From positions 235,796 to 299,795 of the forward strand of contig JAKPHF010000046.1 of the NCBI GenBank assembly GCA_029550525.1: a DNA stretch of 64,000 nucleotides, in the 5' to 3' direction. The notes under the pieces were generated by a model, which was not told where the DNA came from, did not search any database, and saw only the letters and a list, made by a program, of their open reading frames with translations. This document shows positions 4,792 through 13,389 of the stretch, piece by piece. This DNA comes from Planctomycetota bacterium. Lineage in GTDB: Bacteria > Planctomycetota > Phycisphaerae > UBA1845 > PWPN01. Positions within the stretch are counted from its first letter, which is position 1; each line of letters begins with the position of its first letter. A program made the position numbers and the translations under genes.

Positions 4792-5826
4792 TCAGAACTT
4801 GCCGTCGCGAGCGTCGTAGTGAGTGGGCTTGTTGAGCGTTTCGCCGCCAATGCGGACCCAGTGGGCGACCCAGTCGAGCATGCGCTCGACGGAAACGCGC
4901 GGCGGCCCCAGACGGCGGACGTATTCACCGGCGTTGCTCAGCAGCGCGGTGGCCGCCTCGCTGCCGGTGAAGACCGGCTCGCGACCCAGGCGCCGGCCGA
5001 GCCCCTGGGCCAGTTCGCGAACGCTCAGCACGCCGGGGCCCGTGAGGTTCAGGATGAGCGGCGGACTGGAGGTGAGCAGCAGGCTGCGCAAGATCGCCTC
5101 GTTGGCGTCGCCCTGCCAGATGACATTTACATGACCCATGCTCAAGTCGATGGGCGTGCCCGCCTGCACACGAGTGGCAATGTCGAGCAGCACGCCGTAG
5201 CGCAAGTCGATGGCATAGTTGAGCCGGATAAGTGCGGTCGGCGTACCGTGCAGGCCGCTGAAGTATTGGAACATGCGCTCGCGGCCCAGACAGGACTGGG
5301 CGTACTCGCCGACCGGGCCCACGGGCGCGGTCTCGTCGGGTCCGCCGCTGTCCACGGGCGTGAACGGATACACATTGCCGGTGGACAACGCAACGATGCG
5401 CGACTGGCGGAAACGGTCCGCCACCAGCCCGGGCAGGAACACGTTCATGGCCCAGGTCAGCGGCTCGTTGCCCGTCGAGCCGAACTTCTGTCCGACCAGG
5501 AAGATCACGTTCGGGACTTCCGGCAGGCGATCCAGCACGGTGGGAGCAAGCAGGTCGGCGGCAATGGTCTGGACACCGGCCGACTCGAGCCGCCCGCGCA
5601 GGTCGCCACGGCTGAAACGAGCCACACCGATCACCCGATTGTCCTTGCCGGCCTCGGCGAAAGCCCGCTTGGCGAGCACGGCCAGCGTCGGGCCCATCTT
5701 GCCCGCCACGCCAAGCACCAGCAGATCGCCCTCGATCCGTCGCAGATCCTCGATCAGCGCCGATGAAGGCGTGGTCATCACATCATCGAGTTGGGCAACC
5801 GTCTCAATCGTCGCAGGCTGATTCAT
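4792..5826 (-). CDS. NAD-dependent epimerase/dehydratase-like extended SDR lacking the catalytic lysine
   Basis: 344-residue protein with a Rossmann nucleotide-binding motif at residues 39-45 (GVAGKMG), an STGNVYPF strand, and a helix that carries Y175-A-Q-S-C179 where extended SDRs have YxxxK. The fold is that of NAD-dependent sugar epimerases/dehydratases, but replacing the lysine makes ordinary SDR redox chemistry doubtful. It lies 65 bp downstream of the DHDPS-like gene on the same strand, so the two are probably cotranscribed. ATG start at 5826. The substrate is not evident. Confidence 0.75.
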   Translation of the reverse strand: MNQPATIETVAQLDDVMTTPSSALIEDLRRIEGDLLVLGVAGKMGPTLAVLAKRAFAEAGKDNRVIGVARFSRGDLRGRLESAGVQTIAADLLAPTVLDRLPEVPNVIFLVGQKFGSTGNEPLTWAMNVFLPGLVADRFRQSRIVALSTGNVYPFTPVDSGGPDETAPVGPVGEYAQSCLGRERMFQYFSGLHGTPTALIRLNYAIDLRYGVLLDIATRVQAGTPIDLSMGHVNVIWQGDANEAILRSLLLTSSPPLILNLTGPGVLSVRELAQGLGRRLGREPVFTGSEAATALLSNAGEYVRRLGPPRVSVERMLDWVAHWVRIGGETLNKPTHYDARDGKF

Positions 5827-5861
5827 GATGCTGGATCCTGATGAAGCAGTTTGCTTCCTGC

Positions 5862-5897
5862 CCCTGTCTCCTGTCTCCTATCTTCCGTCTCCTATTT
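5862..5897. repeat. Short degenerate tandem repeat of GTCTCCT
   Basis: The spacer between two minus-strand genes contains four imperfect units of about 7-8 bases (CTGTCTC CTGTCTC CTATCTTC CGTCTCCTA). It overlaps the stop codon of the DHDPS-like gene. It resembles the other short-period spacers in this window, though the unit differs from the AGCTG type. Confidence 0.5.
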
Positions 5898-6965
5898 CAA
5901 CCACTCCTCCCGATGTTCCCGCACAAACTCATCATCGTTCAGTTGCGGGTACGCCCGGTAGACGCGGTCGATCTCGTCGGCCTGCCCGGGGGACAAACTC
6001 TCGTCAGGATCGAGACACCAGATGCCCTCGAGCAAGCCTTGGCGTCGCAGCACCTCGTGCAGTCCGGCGATGCAGCCGGCAAAGCCGTTGGCCGCATCGA
6101 AGAAAGCGGCGTTGCTGTCGGTGACGGCCACGCCCAGAGCCAGCGTCTCCGCGGGCACGGGAGTGTTCGTCTCAACGATCCGATGGACGGCCTCGAGTTG
6201 CTCGACGGCACGCTTCGTCCACACCGCCCAGTGACCCAACAGTCCGCCGACCACCCGCTGGCGCACGGGCTGGCCGTTCACCATCGTCGTGAAGGGCGTG
6301 AGCAGATCCGCGATGATGTTGTCGTCGTTGCCCGTGTACAACGCGATCTGGCCGGCCCGCCCCGCTTCGGCCACGCCGCGGATCACGTCGAACGTGTGAT
6401 ACCGGTTGAACGGAGCAATCTTGATGGCCACCACGTTCTCGATCTCGGCAAACCGCCGCCAGAACTCGGCCGGCAGCACGCGCCCGCCCACCGCGGGCTG
6501 CAGATAGAAGCCCATGACCGGAATGATCGAGGCGATCTCGCGGCAATGGGCGATCATGGCATCGACGGTATCACTCTTGAACGCCGAAAGACTCAACAGG
6601 CCGATGTGGTAGCCGAGTTCGCGCGCCAGCTCGGCTTCTTTGACCGCCTGGTCGGTCCGGCCACACACGCCGGCAATGCGGATGACCGTCCGGCCCTCGC
6701 GAGCGGTGTAACGGCTCGCCTCTTCGGCCGCGAGTTCCAGCACGGGCCGCAGCAGCCCGACCGACGGCTCTCGAATGGCGAACTGCGTGGTGTGTACGCC
6801 GACAGCCACGCCGCCCGCCCCTGCCGCCAGGTAATATCGCGTCAGCGCCCGCTGCCGTCGCTCGTCGAGCTTGCGCTGAGCGGTCAACGCCAGTGGGTGG
6901 GCGGGGATGACCACGCCTCGTCGTAACGGTACGGCCCAGTCCTCGGACGATCTCGGATCTGACAC
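5892..6965 (-). CDS. Dihydrodipicolinate synthase (DapA)/N-acetylneuraminate lyase family protein
   Basis: TIM-barrel class I aldolase-type protein of 357 aa. The presumed Schiff-base lysine is K182 in the segment VVAIKIAPF, which aligns with the IxGIK motif of the family. The usual catalytic tyrosine is probably Y154 in GFYLQP. The start is the GTG at 6965, because AAGGAG sits 7 bases upstream. The frame extends to 7100, but the added residues are low-complexity and cover a palindromic repeat. Family members cleave or form 2-keto acids; the sugar-acid or amino-acid substrate is unknown. It is the first gene of a pair with the SDR at 4792-5826. Confidence 0.8.
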   Translation of the reverse strand: MSDPRSSEDWAVPLRRGVVIPAHPLALTAQRKLDERRQRALTRYYLAAGAGGVAVGVHTTQFAIREPSVGLLRPVLELAAEEASRYTAREGRTVIRIAGVCGRTDQAVKEAELARELGYHIGLLSLSAFKSDTVDAMIAHCREIASIIPVMGFYLQPAVGGRVLPAEFWRRFAEIENVVAIKIAPFNRYHTFDVIRGVAEAGRAGQIALYTGNDDNIIADLLTPFTTMVNGQPVRQRVVGGLLGHWAVWTKRAVEQLEAVHRIVETNTPVPAETLALGVAVTDSNAAFFDAANGFAGCIAGLHEVLRRQGLLEGIWCLDPDESLSPGQADEIDRVYRAYPQLNDDEFVREHREEWLK

Positions 6966-7000
6966 GGTCACACTCCTTGCCTGGTTTCGGCGAGGGCGAG

Positions 7001-7043
7001 GCATCCTGCCCGCCTCGTCAGGCGGGGGAGACGCCCGCTCCCC
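7001..7043. repeat. Palindromic intergenic repeat, family B
   Basis: Two overlapping inverted GCCCGCC/GGCGGG blocks, including GGCGGGGGAGACGCCCGC, in the 5' leader of the DHDPS-like gene. Other copies are near 16788, 26418, 26515, 31365, 38700, 39031 and 40939. Confidence 0.65.
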
Positions 7044-7160
7044 GTGCTTGGTCGGTGAGTGCAGAGGATACTCGGCGCGGCAGGATGCGCCAACGTGCAT
7101 CGCTCGCAGGTGTGGGGCCTACGGTCAACGCACGCTGGAAGCGTGCACCACAACCATGAC

Positions 7161-8549
7161 TCATCCGTGGGCGGTGCGCTCGCAGCGATCGACACACGCG
7201 GCAATGGCCAGATCGCCGACGACGTTCACCGTCGTGCGGCACATGTCGAGCAGGCGGTCCACGCCCAGGATGATGCCGATGCCTTCGACGGGCACGCCGA
7301 CCGATCCGAGCACGACGGCCACGAACGGGATCGAGCCGCCGGGCACGCCGGCCGTCCCGATGCCCGCCAGGATGCACAGCAGCGCGACCACGAGTTGCTG
7401 CGCCAGCGTCAGCTCGATGCCGAACACCTGGGCGAGAAAGAGCACCGTGACGCCTTCGTACAGGGCCGTGCCGTTCTGATTGGCTGTCGAGCCGACGGTC
7501 AACACGAAGTTGCCGACCTCGGGCTTGAGGCCGAGATTCTCGCGAGCCACGCGCAGCGACGTGGGCAGCGTGGCGTTGGACGACGACGTGCCGAACGCGG
7601 TGACCACGGCATCCGAAATCCGCGAGAAGAACCGCCATGGATTCATCCGCGCAGCCACGACCAGAAACAGGGAATAGACCACGAGCATGTGCAGGCCCAG
7701 CCCGCTCAGCACCGTGCCCACGTACAGGAAGAGGATTTGCACAATCTGCAGGCCCAGCATGGCGGTCAGGGCGAACATCAGCCCGGCCACGCCCAGGGGA
7801 GCGAGCCGCATGGCAAAACCGACGATGGCCAAGGTGGCGTCGTAAACGCCTTCGAGCACGGCAATCACCGGGCCCGCCCGCTCGGGCGTGTACAGCAAGG
7901 CGATGCCGACGGCCAGAGCAAAGAACATGACCGCCAGGATGCCGCCCGAAGCGCTGCCGTCGATGGCTCCCACCAGTTCCTGGAACGGATTGCGCGGAAT
8001 GATGTCGAGCAGCGCGTCGCGAACCGGCCGTGCCTGTTCAGCCTGCGAGGCGATACGTTGCGTCTCGTCGGCGAACCGGGCTCGCAGAAGGTCGCGCTGA
8101 GCCTGAGGCAACCGGGCACCCGGCCGCACGGTGTTGGCCATCAGCAAGCCCAGACCGACCGACGCCGCCGAGAACAGCACGGTGAACACCAGCGTCAGCA
8201 AACCGACTCGCCCCAGCCGCCGCACGTCGCCTGTACCGGTCACGCCCAGCACCAGGGCACAGAACAGCAGCGGCAACACGATCATGAAGATCAGGCGAAG
8301 GAAGATTTGCCCGGCCGGCTCGGCGAGATAGTACACCATCCACTGCACCCGGGGATCGGCGGTGCCGTCGGCCGCCGGCGGACACAGCCACCGAGCCAGG
8401 ATGCCCCCGCAGGCCCCCAGCAACAGCCCGATCAAAATGCGCCAATGCAGCGCGAGCCTTCGCCGACCAGGTTGTCCGGGAGCAAAAGCCGGCTCGCCCG
8501 AAGCAGTCGTGCTGTGTGTCTCCACTACTCTCAAACGTCTGTCCTGCAC
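7161..8549 (-). CDS. Dicarboxylate/amino acid:cation symporter (DAACS/SDF family)
   Basis: 462-residue membrane protein of the GltP/DctA family, which imports glutamate, aspartate or C4-dicarboxylates with sodium or protons. It has multiple membrane spans, the serine-rich re-entrant signature (FGTSSSNATLPTSL), and the NQNGTALYEG segment of TM7. The loop between TM2 and TM4 is longer than in E. coli GltP, with a charged stretch around residues 120-160. The start is GTG at 8549. It is the last gene of a compact minus-strand run of four and begins 31 bp after the SLC13 permease. Confidence 0.9.
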   Translation of the reverse strand: MQDRRLRVVETHSTTASGEPAFAPGQPGRRRLALHWRILIGLLLGACGGILARWLCPPAADGTADPRVQWMVYYLAEPAGQIFLRLIFMIVLPLLFCALVLGVTGTGDVRRLGRVGLLTLVFTVLFSAASVGLGLLMANTVRPGARLPQAQRDLLRARFADETQRIASQAEQARPVRDALLDIIPRNPFQELVGAIDGSASGGILAVMFFALAVGIALLYTPERAGPVIAVLEGVYDATLAIVGFAMRLAPLGVAGLMFALTAMLGLQIVQILFLYVGTVLSGLGLHMLVVYSLFLVVAARMNPWRFFSRISDAVVTAFGTSSSNATLPTSLRVARENLGLKPEVGNFVLTVGSTANQNGTALYEGVTVLFLAQVFGIELTLAQQLVVALLCILAGIGTAGVPGGSIPFVAVVLGSVGVPVEGIGIILGVDRLLDMCRTTVNVVGDLAIAACVDRCERTAHG

Positions 8550-8580
8550 TTAGTCTGCCGCGCCGGTGCCTTCTGCAGAC

Positions 8581-10395
8581 TCAGAAGGGGAACGCCAATG
8601 GAAGCACGCTGACCGCGACGATCCAACAGAGAATGTCGATGGCCAGCCCCACCTTGAAAAAGTCGCTGAAACGGTAGCCGCCCGGGCCGTAGACCATCAG
8701 ATGCGTCTGGTAGCCCAGCGGCGTGGCGAAGCCATAGCTGGCTGAAACCGCCACCGCCAGAACGAACGGAAGATAGTTCACGCCCAGTTGATGAGCCGTC
8801 TGCAGCGCGATGGGAAACATGAGCACGGCCGCAGCGTTGTTGGTCACCAGTTCGGTCAGCAACAGGCACACGCCGTAGATGGCAATCAACGACAACATCG
8901 GGCTCCCCGAGGCCCAGCTGGTCAACTGGGTGGCGGCGACGGCGGCCACGCCCGTGATCTCCAGCGCCCGGCCGATGGCCAGCGACGCCGCAATGGCGAT
9001 GAGTACGCTCCAGTCCACGCTCCGCCGCGCCATGGTTCCCGTGCAACAGCCGGTGACGATCATGGCTCCGGCCGCGATCATGCCCGCCTCCAGCATGCTG
9101 AGCCACTCGAAGCTGGCCACCAGGACCATGGCGATCATGATGGCCAGGGCGAGCAGACCACGCTCGTGACGAACGGGCTGCGAGTTCTCGACGGCGCTGA
9201 CCAGGTAAAAATGGCGGCTGTTGCGTTGCTGCTCGACCAGCGAAGGATGCGTTTCGAGCAGCAATGTGTCACCCGGCATGAGCACGATGTCGCCGATCTT
9301 GCGGTTGATGCGCTGACCGCTGCGGGCCACCGCAATGACCACCGCGTTGTACACCGATCGGAAGCGACCATCGCGGATGGTCTGGCCGACAAGCGGGCAG
9401 CGCTCCGACACCACCGCCTCGACGAGGCAGCGTTCGGACCGCGAACTGGTCAGTTTGAACACCTGATCGGTCGCAGGCAACAGGCCGCGGGTCTTGCGCA
9501 GATCGACGACCGAATCCACCACGCCCACGAAGACCAACTGGTCGTTGGCCTGGAGCTTCTCCTGCGGGCCGACCGCGGGGATGATGCGGTCGCCGCGGTT
9601 GATCTCAGCCAGGAAACACCGGGGCAAGTGGCGCAGACCGGCCTCTTCGATGGTCTTGCCCACCAGCGGCCCGTGCGGATCGACCTTCATTTCCACCGTG
9701 TACTCGCGGGGGTCGGCAGTGTCGCTCAGGAGCGGCTTGCGATCGGGGAGCAGCCACTTATGCGTGGCCACCATGAACAGGATGCCGGCCACCGTGCAAG
9801 GCAACCCCACCCACAGAAAGTCCAGCATATTGAAGCCGGGCAGATGTTCGCCGGGCCGGTTCGGGTCCGGTGTCGCCAGCAGCAGGCCGTGCACGATGAG
9901 GTTGGTACTGGTGCCGATGAGCGTGCAGCAGCCGCCGAGGACGGCTGCGTAACTCAACGGAATCATCAACTTCGAGGAGGAGATTCCGTTCTTGCGGCCC
10001 CAGTCGTTTACCGCGGGCATGAACATGGCTACCACCGGCGTGTTGTTGAGCCAGGCGCTCATGAACGAGACCGGTGCCATCAACCGCACCAGGGCTCCCC
10101 GCACCGACTTGGGTCGGCGCAGGAAGTGCTGCACCACCCAGCCGGTGGCGCCGGTGGCATCCAGCGCGCAAGCCACCACGTAGAGAACCGCTACCGTGAG
10201 CATGCCTTCGTTCGCCATCCCGGCGAACGCCTGCTTTGTGTCGAGCACGCCGGTGAGGACCAGCACGGTCACGCCGGTCACCAGGATGAGGTCAGCCCCG
10301 TACTGGGTGAACAACAGCATGCCCAGCACGAACAGGATCACACCGACCGTGACCCACGCATGCCAACCCAGAGCTGCCCACGCTTCCCAGGCCAT
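8581..10395 (-). CDS. SLC13-family permease with two TrkA-C (RCK_C) domains
   Basis: 604-residue anion/dicarboxylate permease related to the CitMHS/ArsB/SLC13 group. Two blocks of transmembrane helices flank a cytoplasmic insert of roughly residues 205-390 holding two RCK_C domains (ligand-binding modules also found in K+ channels). The SLC13 signatures are visible as SAWLNNTPVVAMFMP and LIGTSTNLIVHG in the first half and LVTNNAAAVLMFP in the second. The ATG at 10395 directly abuts the stop of the voltage-sensor gene, with GAGGAG about 10 bases upstream inside that gene. Substrates in this family include sulfate, citrate and succinate; the present one is unknown. Confidence 0.88.
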   Translation of the reverse strand: MAWEAWAALGWHAWVTVGVILFVLGMLLFTQYGADLILVTGVTVLVLTGVLDTKQAFAGMANEGMLTVAVLYVVACALDATGATGWVVQHFLRRPKSVRGALVRLMAPVSFMSAWLNNTPVVAMFMPAVNDWGRKNGISSSKLMIPLSYAAVLGGCCTLIGTSTNLIVHGLLLATPDPNRPGEHLPGFNMLDFLWVGLPCTVAGILFMVATHKWLLPDRKPLLSDTADPREYTVEMKVDPHGPLVGKTIEEAGLRHLPRCFLAEINRGDRIIPAVGPQEKLQANDQLVFVGVVDSVVDLRKTRGLLPATDQVFKLTSSRSERCLVEAVVSERCPLVGQTIRDGRFRSVYNAVVIAVARSGQRINRKIGDIVLMPGDTLLLETHPSLVEQQRNSRHFYLVSAVENSQPVRHERGLLALAIMIAMVLVASFEWLSMLEAGMIAAGAMIVTGCCTGTMARRSVDWSVLIAIAASLAIGRALEITGVAAVAATQLTSWASGSPMLSLIAIYGVCLLLTELVTNNAAAVLMFPIALQTAHQLGVNYLPFVLAVAVSASYGFATPLGYQTHLMVYGPGGYRFSDFFKVGLAIDILCWIVAVSVLPLAFPF

Positions 10396-11358
10396 TTACT
10401 GAGACTCCTCGGTCTGGTCACATAACTCATCAAGTTCGGCCTTGCCGCTCCGCGCGGTGGAAGCGGTGGAACCGTTCGGCTTCACCGGACCGTCAGCGTC
10501 CGGCCGGTTTCGCGAATCAGGCCCATCATAGGAGGGCTCCTTCGCCTGTGTATTCGCGACCGATGCAGCGCTCGCCGCCGCCCGAGACTCCAACTCGTCG
10601 ATGCGCCGCTGGAGCCGCTGAAGCTCCAGAACCAGCGCGGCCCGGGGCCACTTGGCGTAGTCCGGCCGCCCGCCAACCGCGGCCACCTCGGCCCCCTGCC
10701 GGAACCGCTGCGTGAAACGCAGGCCCAACAGCACCGGCACCATCGTCCGCACCGCTTTGAGGCCTACGCCGCGCAAAGCGTACAGCCGGCTCACCTGCAC
10801 GACCCGGGCCACCTGCAACGGTTTCAAGAAGCGGATCGTTCGAAAGCCCTGCAGCGGACGGAGGAACGGCAGGATGATAATGATCAGGTCCAGCCAGTTG
10901 CGGGCGATATAACCCAACCGGCTCTGAGCGATGCTCACCTTGACCACGAACTCGGCCAGGAACGCGGTGGAAATGGTCACGTGGGCGATCATCACGCCCG
11001 TGGTGAGCCAGTCCTTCCGATGTTCGCCGCGGCTGACGTAGTAGTCCACCACGAGCAACGGCAGGACCAGCACGGCCAACGCCAACATCGGGCCGTTGAA
11101 GAACCGGTCCACCGCCCGGCGAACGTCATCATCGACGTCCAACCAACCGCGAAACGGAACGTGGATTCGCCGGCAGCCCGGCGGCGGTGGAAAGTCCGGC
11201 CGCGTCGGGTGCCAGACAGCAGGTGATGCGGCCGGCGGCTCGACCGTGACGGCGACAAATCCGCCATGGGATTCCGTCCGGAGCAAGACCCCGCAGTGAG
11301 GACAGACCCCAACCCCTTCCAGATTGCGATCGCCGAGTTGGGGGGCCTGACTGGTCAT
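10396..11358 (-). CDS. Voltage-sensor-domain protein without pore, with C-terminal coiled coil
   Basis: 320 residues. The N-terminus has one CPHC pair (residues 19-22) and a Pro-rich stretch. A four-helix voltage-sensor module follows: S1 ~88-107 (ending VVDYYV), S2 ~118-143 with F133, E136 and K140 at charge-transfer positions, S3 ~152-166 with N154 and D157, and S4 173-191 with R173, R176, K179, Q182, R185, Q188 and R191 at exact three-residue spacing. No S5-pore-S6 is present; a short basic linker leads to a coiled coil near 238-262 (LELQRLQRRIDELES) and a polar tail. This is the general architecture of Hv1-type proton channels, although closer homology to Kv sensors is possible. It overlaps the upstream gene by ATGA. 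Function is inferred only. Confidence 0.7.
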   Translation of the reverse strand: MTSQAPQLGDRNLEGVGVCPHCGVLLRTESHGGFVAVTVEPPAASPAVWHPTRPDFPPPPGCRRIHVPFRGWLDVDDDVRRAVDRFFNGPMLALAVLVLPLLVVDYYVSRGEHRKDWLTTGVMIAHVTISTAFLAEFVVKVSIAQSRLGYIARNWLDLIIIILPFLRPLQGFRTIRFLKPLQVARVVQVSRLYALRGVGLKAVRTMVPVLLGLRFTQRFRQGAEVAAVGGRPDYAKWPRAALVLELQRLQRRIDELESRAAASAASVANTQAKEPSYDGPDSRNRPDADGPVKPNGSTASTARSGKAELDELCDQTEESQ

Positions 11359-12077
11359 TTCTGCACAACGGCCACCCGACCCAGCAGTTCATCGAGCGCC
11401 TTGGCCTTGCGGTGCACGAACAGCACGGTTTTCAGCTCCTTTTCCGTCTGAGCGTCACCGAAATAAAACACCAGCTTGCCCGAGCCGAGCAGGCCGTACT
11501 CGACGATGTCCTCAACGACCATTCGGAAACGGGCCTGGGCAGTCGGGTGCCGTTCCTGCTCGTGCATGAACCCTTCGTGGATGATGATCTCGTTGTTCTC
11601 GACCTTCCAGTAGTTGAACCGGGTCGTGATCCAAGCGATGGCCAGGTTCAGCAGAAGCACGAGCGAAAACGTGAAGTAGAACGCCGCGTTGGCCCAGACC
11701 TGAATGCTCAACGCTCTGGCGATGCCCTTCCACACGCGGTGCCCGAACTGCTGGTTGAGCAAGAAAATGGCCAGCACCAAAGCCAGGATAGCCAGGGCCA
11801 CGATGATGAAGCCGCGCAAGCTCAGGTCGTACAGCAGCAGCGTCATGTTGATCGCCAGGATCACCAGAAACACCAGCCCGACGTAGTGAATGCGGGCGAA
11901 ATGATCCGGCGGCGTCGTGCCCCACAAAGCCATGATGATCCCGCAAACCAGTCCGGCAACAAGCGTGGGCCACATCATGATGATCTTCGGCCAATCGCGC
12001 AGGATCACCGGTTCGGGGACCGATCGCCTAGGGGGCGCCGGCTGCGTCTGATTCGGCTGCGTGGCGGAATCGGCCAT
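11355..12077 (-). CDS. Membrane protein with C-terminal bacterial PH-like domain
   Basis: 240 residues. After a Pro-rich N-terminus there are four likely transmembrane segments (about 30-50, 64-84, 88-107, 127-150). A soluble beta-rich domain follows from ~153 with the pattern YWKVENNEIIIHEG, typical of bPH_2/DUF304-type pleckstrin-homology-like domains. Such proteins are membrane-associated with unknown molecular role. It is the first gene of the four-gene minus-strand run; its TGA overlaps the next ATG (11355-11358), implying translational coupling with the voltage-sensor protein. Confidence 0.65.
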   Translation of the reverse strand: MADSATQPNQTQPAPPRRSVPEPVILRDWPKIIMMWPTLVAGLVCGIIMALWGTTPPDHFARIHYVGLVFLVILAINMTLLLYDLSLRGFIIVALAILALVLAIFLLNQQFGHRVWKGIARALSIQVWANAAFYFTFSLVLLLNLAIAWITTRFNYWKVENNEIIIHEGFMHEQERHPTAQARFRMVVEDIVEYGLLGSGKLVFYFGDAQTEKELKTVLFVHRKAKALDELLGRVAVVQK

Positions 12078-12210: not shown

Positions 12211-12250
12211 AAAAAAGCTGGCGACCCGCACCGGTCGGCGGATCGCCAGC
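12211..12250 (-). terminator. Rho-independent terminator of the PEP-CTERM gene
   Basis: Read on the minus strand, GCTGGCGA (12250-12243) pairs with TCGCCAGC (12224-12217) around an 18-base GC-rich loop region and is followed at once by TTTTTT (12216-12211). It starts 33 bp after the PEP-CTERM stop codon. Confidence 0.8.
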
Positions 12251-12283: not shown

Positions 12284-12859
12284 TCAGCGACGACGACGGA
12301 GCAGCGGCAGACCGAGCGCCACGAGCATCAGGCTGGCCGGCTCCGGCGTGATGGCCAGGTTGTCCACAGCCGTCCAGGTCCACTCGGCAAAGCGGACTCC
12401 GAAATTCACCTTCAGTTCGTCATTGCCGGTGGCCGTGACGGGCACGCTGAAGGAGACCCAGGGGAAGTCGGCCGCCCACTTATCCTCGGAAGGCACGAGA
12501 AGACTCTGGACCACCGTGCCGTTCCAAAGCACATCCACCGAGGCGGGCCGCTCGGAGTCGCTGTAACGCGCCGCCGCAAACAGTTCGCCGCTCAGGATCT
12601 GCTCGCCGGTCACGCCCGTAACGATCTGGGAGATGCTTCCCGAGGGACCGTCCCAGCTTCCGCCCCATGAGATGATCACGCCCGCCGCCGGCGCGCCCGA
12701 CGGGGAAAACGGCAGACCGAAGTCGTCGTTCACGACACGGGCACCGCCTGACACCGTCCAGCCATCCAGACCGCTATCGAACGTTCCATTGATAATCCCG
12801 GCCGAGGCCACACTGGCCACTCCGGCCACCAACAATGTACTGACCCACAATCTGTTCAT
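12284..12859 (-). CDS. Secreted PEP-CTERM sorting-signal protein
   Basis: 191-residue exported protein. It has a signal peptide (MNRLWVSTLLVAGVASVASA), a beta-sandwich body starting GIINGTFDSGLDGW that resembles carbohydrate-binding or choice-of-anchor modules, and a C-terminal PEP-CTERM tripartite tail (PEPASL, hydrophobic helix, RRRR). PEP-CTERM proteins are normally processed by an exosortase and deposited in an extracellular matrix; no exosortase is in this window. The ATG at 12859 is preceded by GGGGAGGG at good distance. The frame continues upstream but without a plausible start. Confidence 0.85.
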   Translation of the reverse strand: MNRLWVSTLLVAGVASVASAGIINGTFDSGLDGWTVSGGARVVNDDFGLPFSPSGAPAAGVIISWGGSWDGPSGSISQIVTGVTGEQILSGELFAAARYSDSERPASVDVLWNGTVVQSLLVPSEDKWAADFPWVSFSVPVTATGNDELKVNFGVRFAEWTWTAVDNLAITPEPASLMLVALGLPLLRRRR

Positions 12860-13389
12860 GGATTGTCCCTCCCCACAAGAGATCCCCTGAGACGTGAATT
12901 GCACTCGCCAATCGCGCACCGGCTGCCCGGGCCGATTGTAACCATCAACTCTCTGCCAAATGCCTGCGAAAGAAATGGTCAGACGGGAGAACGACAACCG
13001 TCTCTCCTCCTCCACGTACACCCGCCAAGATAACTTCGGCAGTGGAAAAAGTCAACTGAAAATTGCTGTTCGATGTCGTTCCAAAGCGGTTTGGAATGGG
13101 GCTAAAACCCTTTGAGACGAATCAACGTCCCGATCCGCCCCACGTGACGGTTTTGGGCCACAGCACTGAAACACGGGCCGGGATTCGAACCCCTCTGTTC
13201 CGATGGTGTGCCCCATTTTTTTGCCACATTGCCGCCGGTCCAGGCCCGGCGTAGGCTATTGCCCATTGCCACCGCCCGCTTGGCGCTTTTCGGGAGACGC
13301 GTCTCGGCCACCGCTGAACGGGCGAGCCGTCGATCCCGCGAGTTCCAAAGTCCTCGCAGAGCGGGTTGGTCGGAAATGGCACTGCAACC
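12860..13389. other. Divergent intergenic region with a tRNA T-arm-like relic
   Basis: 530 bp between a minus-strand and a plus-strand gene, so promoters for both should lie here, but none is clear. The only recognisable item is GGGTTCGAATCCC on the minus strand (about 13180-13193), identical to a tRNA T-loop with partial stem. The surrounding sequence does not fold into a complete tRNA. Confidence 0.4.

Follow-up and report, generated by a model that had tools for sequence, protein, structure and literature searches.

Stand-alone voltage-sensor domains (VSDs) are known in eukaryotes. Hv1 combines a VSD that lacks a pore with a C-terminal coiled coil, and TMEM266 and Ci-VSP also carry a VSD without a linked pore. 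Hv1, which is known in eukaryotes only, is recognised by an acidic residue in the middle of S1 together with the motif RxWRxxR in S4, and a 2023 review stated, after database searches, that every prokaryotic VSD is accompanied by a pore (PMC10377628). Protons can also pass through an isolated Shaker VSD (PMC13095418). In a 64,000-nucleotide stretch of DNA from a Planctomycetota bacterium (the window; contig JAKPHF010000046.1, positions 235,796 to 299,795), we found a 320 aa voltage-sensor-only protein (10396..11358, minus strand) that shares with Hv1 a VSD without a pore and a C-terminal coiled coil, the latter predicted. Judged from sequence, this protein is a member of a conserved, apparently undescribed bacterial family present in three phyla.

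The assignment of the window protein draws on its open reading frame, an Ion_trans match, hhalign, an AlphaFold model and the family alignment. When the gene is read in frame, the ATG at 11358 is the sole ATG ahead of the conserved part of the protein. An N-terminal tail leads into an RGW hairpin (residues about 62-75), and this is followed by S1 (about 86-108), S2 (about 116-143), S3 (about 150-167), an S4-like basic segment (167-192; 10783..10860, minus strand), an amphipathic helix (195-226) and a predicted coiled-coil helix (239-273; 10540..10644, minus strand), where both sets of coordinates are calculated from residue numbers. The match to Ion_trans (PF00520) covers residues 97-191 and profile positions 14-110 of 241, with an E value of 1e-3 that lies below the curated cut-off. 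An earlier, sequence-only reading of this DNA had described basic or Gln residues at every third position of S4. We found that this pattern is real and even longer than described: R167, Q170, R173, R176, K179, Q182, R185, Q188 and R191 make nine consecutive third positions occupied by R, K or Q, a run reached by none of 20,000 shuffles. When R and K only are counted, the longest run is 3 and falls within chance (p=0.16), so the significance of the pattern in the window protein depends on counting Gln as well, which is a post hoc choice. The hydropathy of this S4 is low (0.07).

We collected at least 63 pore-less VSD proteins from Planctomycetota, Gammaproteobacteria (mainly Granulosicoccaceae) and Cyclobacterium (Bacteroidota). 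Some of them come from named strains, such as Ca. Laterigemmans baculatus and Cyclobacterium. In the family alignment, F133 and E136 in S2 are each present in 63/63 members, as are P100 and P164; W155 and D157 in S3 are present in 61/63 and 59/63 members, respectively, an acid is found at position 105 in 59/63, and position 196 is R or K in 63/63. F133, E136 and D157 are the residues of the gating-charge transfer centre. A filter motif is absent in all 63 members and the tail beyond position 205 is just 50-161 residues long; together with the confinement of the Ion_trans match to S1-S4, the missing filter bears out the earlier observation that no pore domain follows S4. For pairs of family members where dS was computable, dN/dS is 0.055-0.25, indicating that the VSD-only genes are under purifying selection and are not broken channels. 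We also considered that the window gene might be a frameshifted channel gene and rejected this, since the relatives are uniformly pore-less and dN/dS is well below 1. Runs of basic residues at i+3 in S4 reach 9 in a row in Granulosicoccaceae, with a mean run of 4.2 as compared to 2.1 in shuffled sequences. The length of S4 varies from 20 to 36 residues between window positions 165 and 196, and regularly spaced S4 charges are few in some members, so voltage sensing may differ across the family. NCBIfam holds no model for the VSD-only family. A PHROGs phage family of unknown function (phrog_7872, 254 positions) matches S1-S4 of the window protein with an E value of 7e-8, and phage or prophage channels may, from this similarity, belong to the group of the VSD protein; a search of viral contigs for relatives of the VSD protein returned none.

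When we compared a profile of 45 family members with four pore-bearing bacterial channels by hhalign, S1-S4 aligned with a probability of 99.3% (E 3e-20) and the alignment then ended. Individually, 20/45 members match Ion_trans at E<=0.1, the best at 3.4e-6. The family thus has its S1-S4 sequence in common with short voltage-gated channels of bacteria (Ion_trans, PF00520), such as the one from Chloroflexi on L066, including F..E in S2, W.D in S3 and LRPLR at the start of S4. In contrast to these channels, the family lacks S5, the selectivity filter and S6, and carries a basic amphipathic helix straight after S4, with a helical coiled-coil tail behind it. Of the four pore-bearing rows in the tree, the Chloroflexi channel (L066, 342-1142) is nearest the VSD-only family, on a long branch, and is a possible model of the family's ancestor.

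In 50/63 members, an extra N-terminal half-VSD precedes the VSD and is homologous to the protein's own S1-S3 (hhalign E 1.1e-7, probability 94%). This half-VSD stops at PPLR without an S4, and a WLP..GW hairpin then leads to the complete VSD. Such two-repeat members, which carry an internal duplication, comprise L031, L034-L035, L037-L065 and L122-L139. The 13 single-VSD members, which include the window protein, are mostly from Phycisphaerae, keep the hairpin and form one group on the tree (support 85/95). The members from Proteobacteria and Bacteroidota branch from within the planctomycete sequences, a placement suggestive of horizontal transfer.

The AlphaFold model of the window protein (mean pLDDT 71) contains S1-S3, the helix after S4 and the helix at 239-273, which fits a coiled coil; with the S1-S4 homology, this supports the original description of a voltage sensor that has a coiled coil and no pore. 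S4 itself is modelled at low confidence (pLDDT about 49-55). A model of a two-repeat member, L050, reached a pLDDT of 87 and a pTM of 0.78, with pLDDT 64-73 in S4 and a predicted C-terminal helix at 311-348. In a PDB fold search with the window model, the best matches were voltage-gated channels, KCNQ2 first, and these were weak (E >= 0.027). The L050 model gave chance helical matches only, with no VSD among the matches listed, and PDB sequence searches with the window protein and with the family profile returned coiled-coil or chance matches only. The fold evidence for a VSD, which comes from predicted models, is thus supportive at best.

Taken together, these data lead us to favour, with roughly even confidence, a family of pore-less voltage sensors in which a dimer passes a potential-driven shift of S4 or of the adjoining helix to a cytosolic or membrane partner. 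Such a family would descend from a short-type bacterial pore-bearing channel through loss of S5-S6, with a VSD that retains the charge-transfer centre (F133, E136 and D157) and a basic S4. S4 would continue into the cytosolic amphipathic helix and then into the coiled coil, which would bring about dimerisation. Membrane potential would shift S4 or the adjoining helix, and the movement would be relayed to a partner encoded at no fixed neighbouring place, giving the protein a signalling or regulatory role. Voltage sensing by the family is our inference from these features: the charge-transfer residues are invariant, which argues for continued passage of charge, and the variable S4 calls for caution.

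That same variability in S4 length and charge number would be expected if the VSD were degenerate and the protein, without sensing voltage, were a membrane-anchored coiled-coil scaffold in which the basic S4-like helix and those after it attach to the inner leaflet or keep the fold stable. The most conserved sites include structural Pro and Trp residues (P100, P164 and W155), the window S4 combines low hydropathy with low AlphaFold confidence, and the L050 model found no VSD fold among its listed matches, all of which fit a scaffold. However, F133, E136 and D157 should drift if no charge were passed, and an S4 that did not cross the membrane would place up to nine positive charges outside, contrary to the positive-inside rule. 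We therefore consider a scaffold unlikely, though it is the alternative to which we give most weight.

The homology to channel VSDs could also mean that the protein is an accessory or silent subunit that assembles with a pore-bearing K+ channel whose gene lies elsewhere and modulates the gating of that channel. The genome that carries the window does encode, elsewhere, a single Ion_trans channel whose filter is GYGD, and the tail of pore-bearing relatives could also be a coiled coil. This channel is not close in sequence, however, and a search of the genome with the VSD protein retrieved only the protein itself; moreover, the genes that recur beside members of the family did not include a channel gene. 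An accessory subunit therefore seems improbable to us.

The sequence-only reading had proposed a proton channel, and a protein of the Hv1 type would pass protons through the VSD itself. In its VSD-only layout and its predicted coiled coil at the C-terminus, the protein resembles Hv1, and an isolated Shaker VSD is reported to conduct protons (PMC13095418). By both of the signatures that define Hv1 (PMC10377628), the proposal fails: D and E are absent from S1 positions 92-103 in all 63 members, in a sequence register that may be in error relative to Hv1, and RxWRxxR occurs in none of them. A Trp occurs within 165-205 in 14 members and, according to the alignment, it follows R196 and is not part of such a motif. 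The conserved S1 acid at 105 appears from the sequence to lie nearer the outer end of S1 than the mid-S1 window does. In Kv channels, the S1 acid sits towards the outer end, so that the position in the family is Kv-like. In addition, Hv1 was matched neither in the PDB sequence search nor among the fold matches listed. Since the Hv1 signatures are missing, we do not assign the family to Hv1, from which it also differs in being bacterial and in matching bacterial channels in sequence, and we regard an Hv1-like channel as quite improbable. By analogy, the VSD protein may leak protons as the isolated Shaker VSD does.

We confirmed the four packed minus-strand genes among which the VSD gene had been described, together with their junctions. 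The gene for a membrane protein whose C-terminal part is soluble (11355..12077; open reading frame and Pfam) overlaps the VSD gene by ATGA at 11355-11358, the VSD gene abuts a CitMHS/SLC13-like permease gene (8581..10395) with zero bases between them (10396/10395), and a 31-bp gap separates the permease gene from that of an SDF-family symporter (7161..8549). The sequence GAGGAG lies about 10 bases upstream of the permease start, within the VSD gene, and no terminator-like site was found at the gene junctions inside the run. The run of four holds as described. It also extends into two further genes of the same strand that had been omitted, one for a DHDPS-like protein (5892-7100) and one for an epimerase-like protein (4792-5826). 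With most DHDPS homologues the alignment begins at about residue 22-58, so the true start of the DHDPS-like gene may lie further downstream and its gap to the symporter gene may be larger. At the other end, a strong terminator-like hairpin (12217-12250, minus strand) separates the gene at 12284-13021 from the start at 12077, and the run therefore probably begins its own transcription unit.

Of the partner assignments, the SLC13 permease with two RCK_C domains was confirmed by Pfam (CitMHS and two TrkA_C stretches). The dicarboxylate symporter belongs to the SDF family by Pfam, with GltP as its top NCBIfam match, below the cut-off. The protein called PH-like is a membrane protein, but the PH label did not hold: Pfam gave no PH family and only a sub-threshold TctB match, and its homologues gave no convincing family match. 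The two transporters are ordinary members of the SLC13/DASS permeases with RCK_C and of the SDF (GltP/DctA) symporters, groups that elsewhere have no linkage to VSD genes.

To find relatives, we searched with the VSD protein in 248 genomes of the class, 114 of the order, the named genome collection and 392 of the phylum. Genes were called around the VSD genes of 43 named relatives and the window, plus 18 more phylum genomes, for 61 VSD-relative neighbourhoods. The 617 neighbour genes (window included) contain no match to the PH-like, SLC13, SDF, DHDPS or epimerase proteins except in the window itself. In the 13 genomes of the window's family, the PH-like gene is found in 7, SLC13 in 5 and SDF in 1, and the VSD gene is found only in the window genome and in G277, where it lies on a different contig from the PH-like gene. 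A third match of the VSD search in these genomes (G273) is a pore-bearing channel. The PH-like gene adjoins a VSD gene in the window only, and no PH-like, SLC13 or SDF gene of the window's family does so outside it; they lie on other contigs or in genomes without a VSD gene. The only pair of the run that recurs is the DHDPS-like and epimerase-like genes (window 4792-7100), in at least 4 genomes of the order (L155, L159, L161 and L162). This pair, possibly part of a sugar-acid pathway, recurs apart from VSD and transporter genes. In Phycisphaerales loci L023, L024, L028, L032 and L033, the VSD gene directly precedes NAD synthetase and mutL, and in 4/5 of them an HTH/response-regulator gene lies immediately upstream of it.

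The arrangement of a VSD gene with carboxylate transport genes is a one-off and not a conserved system. The sequence-only reading had tied the VSD protein to organic acid uptake, had asked for this neighbourhood search and had said that its proposal would be refuted if related genomes lacked the pairing; in the related genomes searched, the pairing is indeed lacking. An operon for organic-acid uptake with its own voltage-responsive regulator or proton channel, which the packing and the terminator-free junctions would suit and which could hold for the window lineage alone, is therefore very improbable, as no relative has the pairing, no outside neighbour gene matches the partners and the partner genes are found apart from VSD genes.

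Compared by description, the family differs from TMEM266 and Ci-VSP in that it lacks a recognisable effector domain such as a phosphatase. We tentatively suggest, with somewhat less than even confidence, that its members are widespread bacterial stand-alone voltage sensors, most with a leading half-sensor, that report membrane potential without conduction and are an independently arisen counterpart of TMEM266 and VSP. A search confined to openly available literature found no paper on a pore-less bacterial VSD family. The family contradicts the statement that all prokaryotic VSDs have a pore (PMC10377628) and is relevant to the possible origins of stand-alone sensors such as Hv1 and VSP. These are small bacterial proteins, some of them in named strains, which allow pore-free voltage sensing to be tested, and the family would be a molecular candidate for bacterial membrane-potential signalling.
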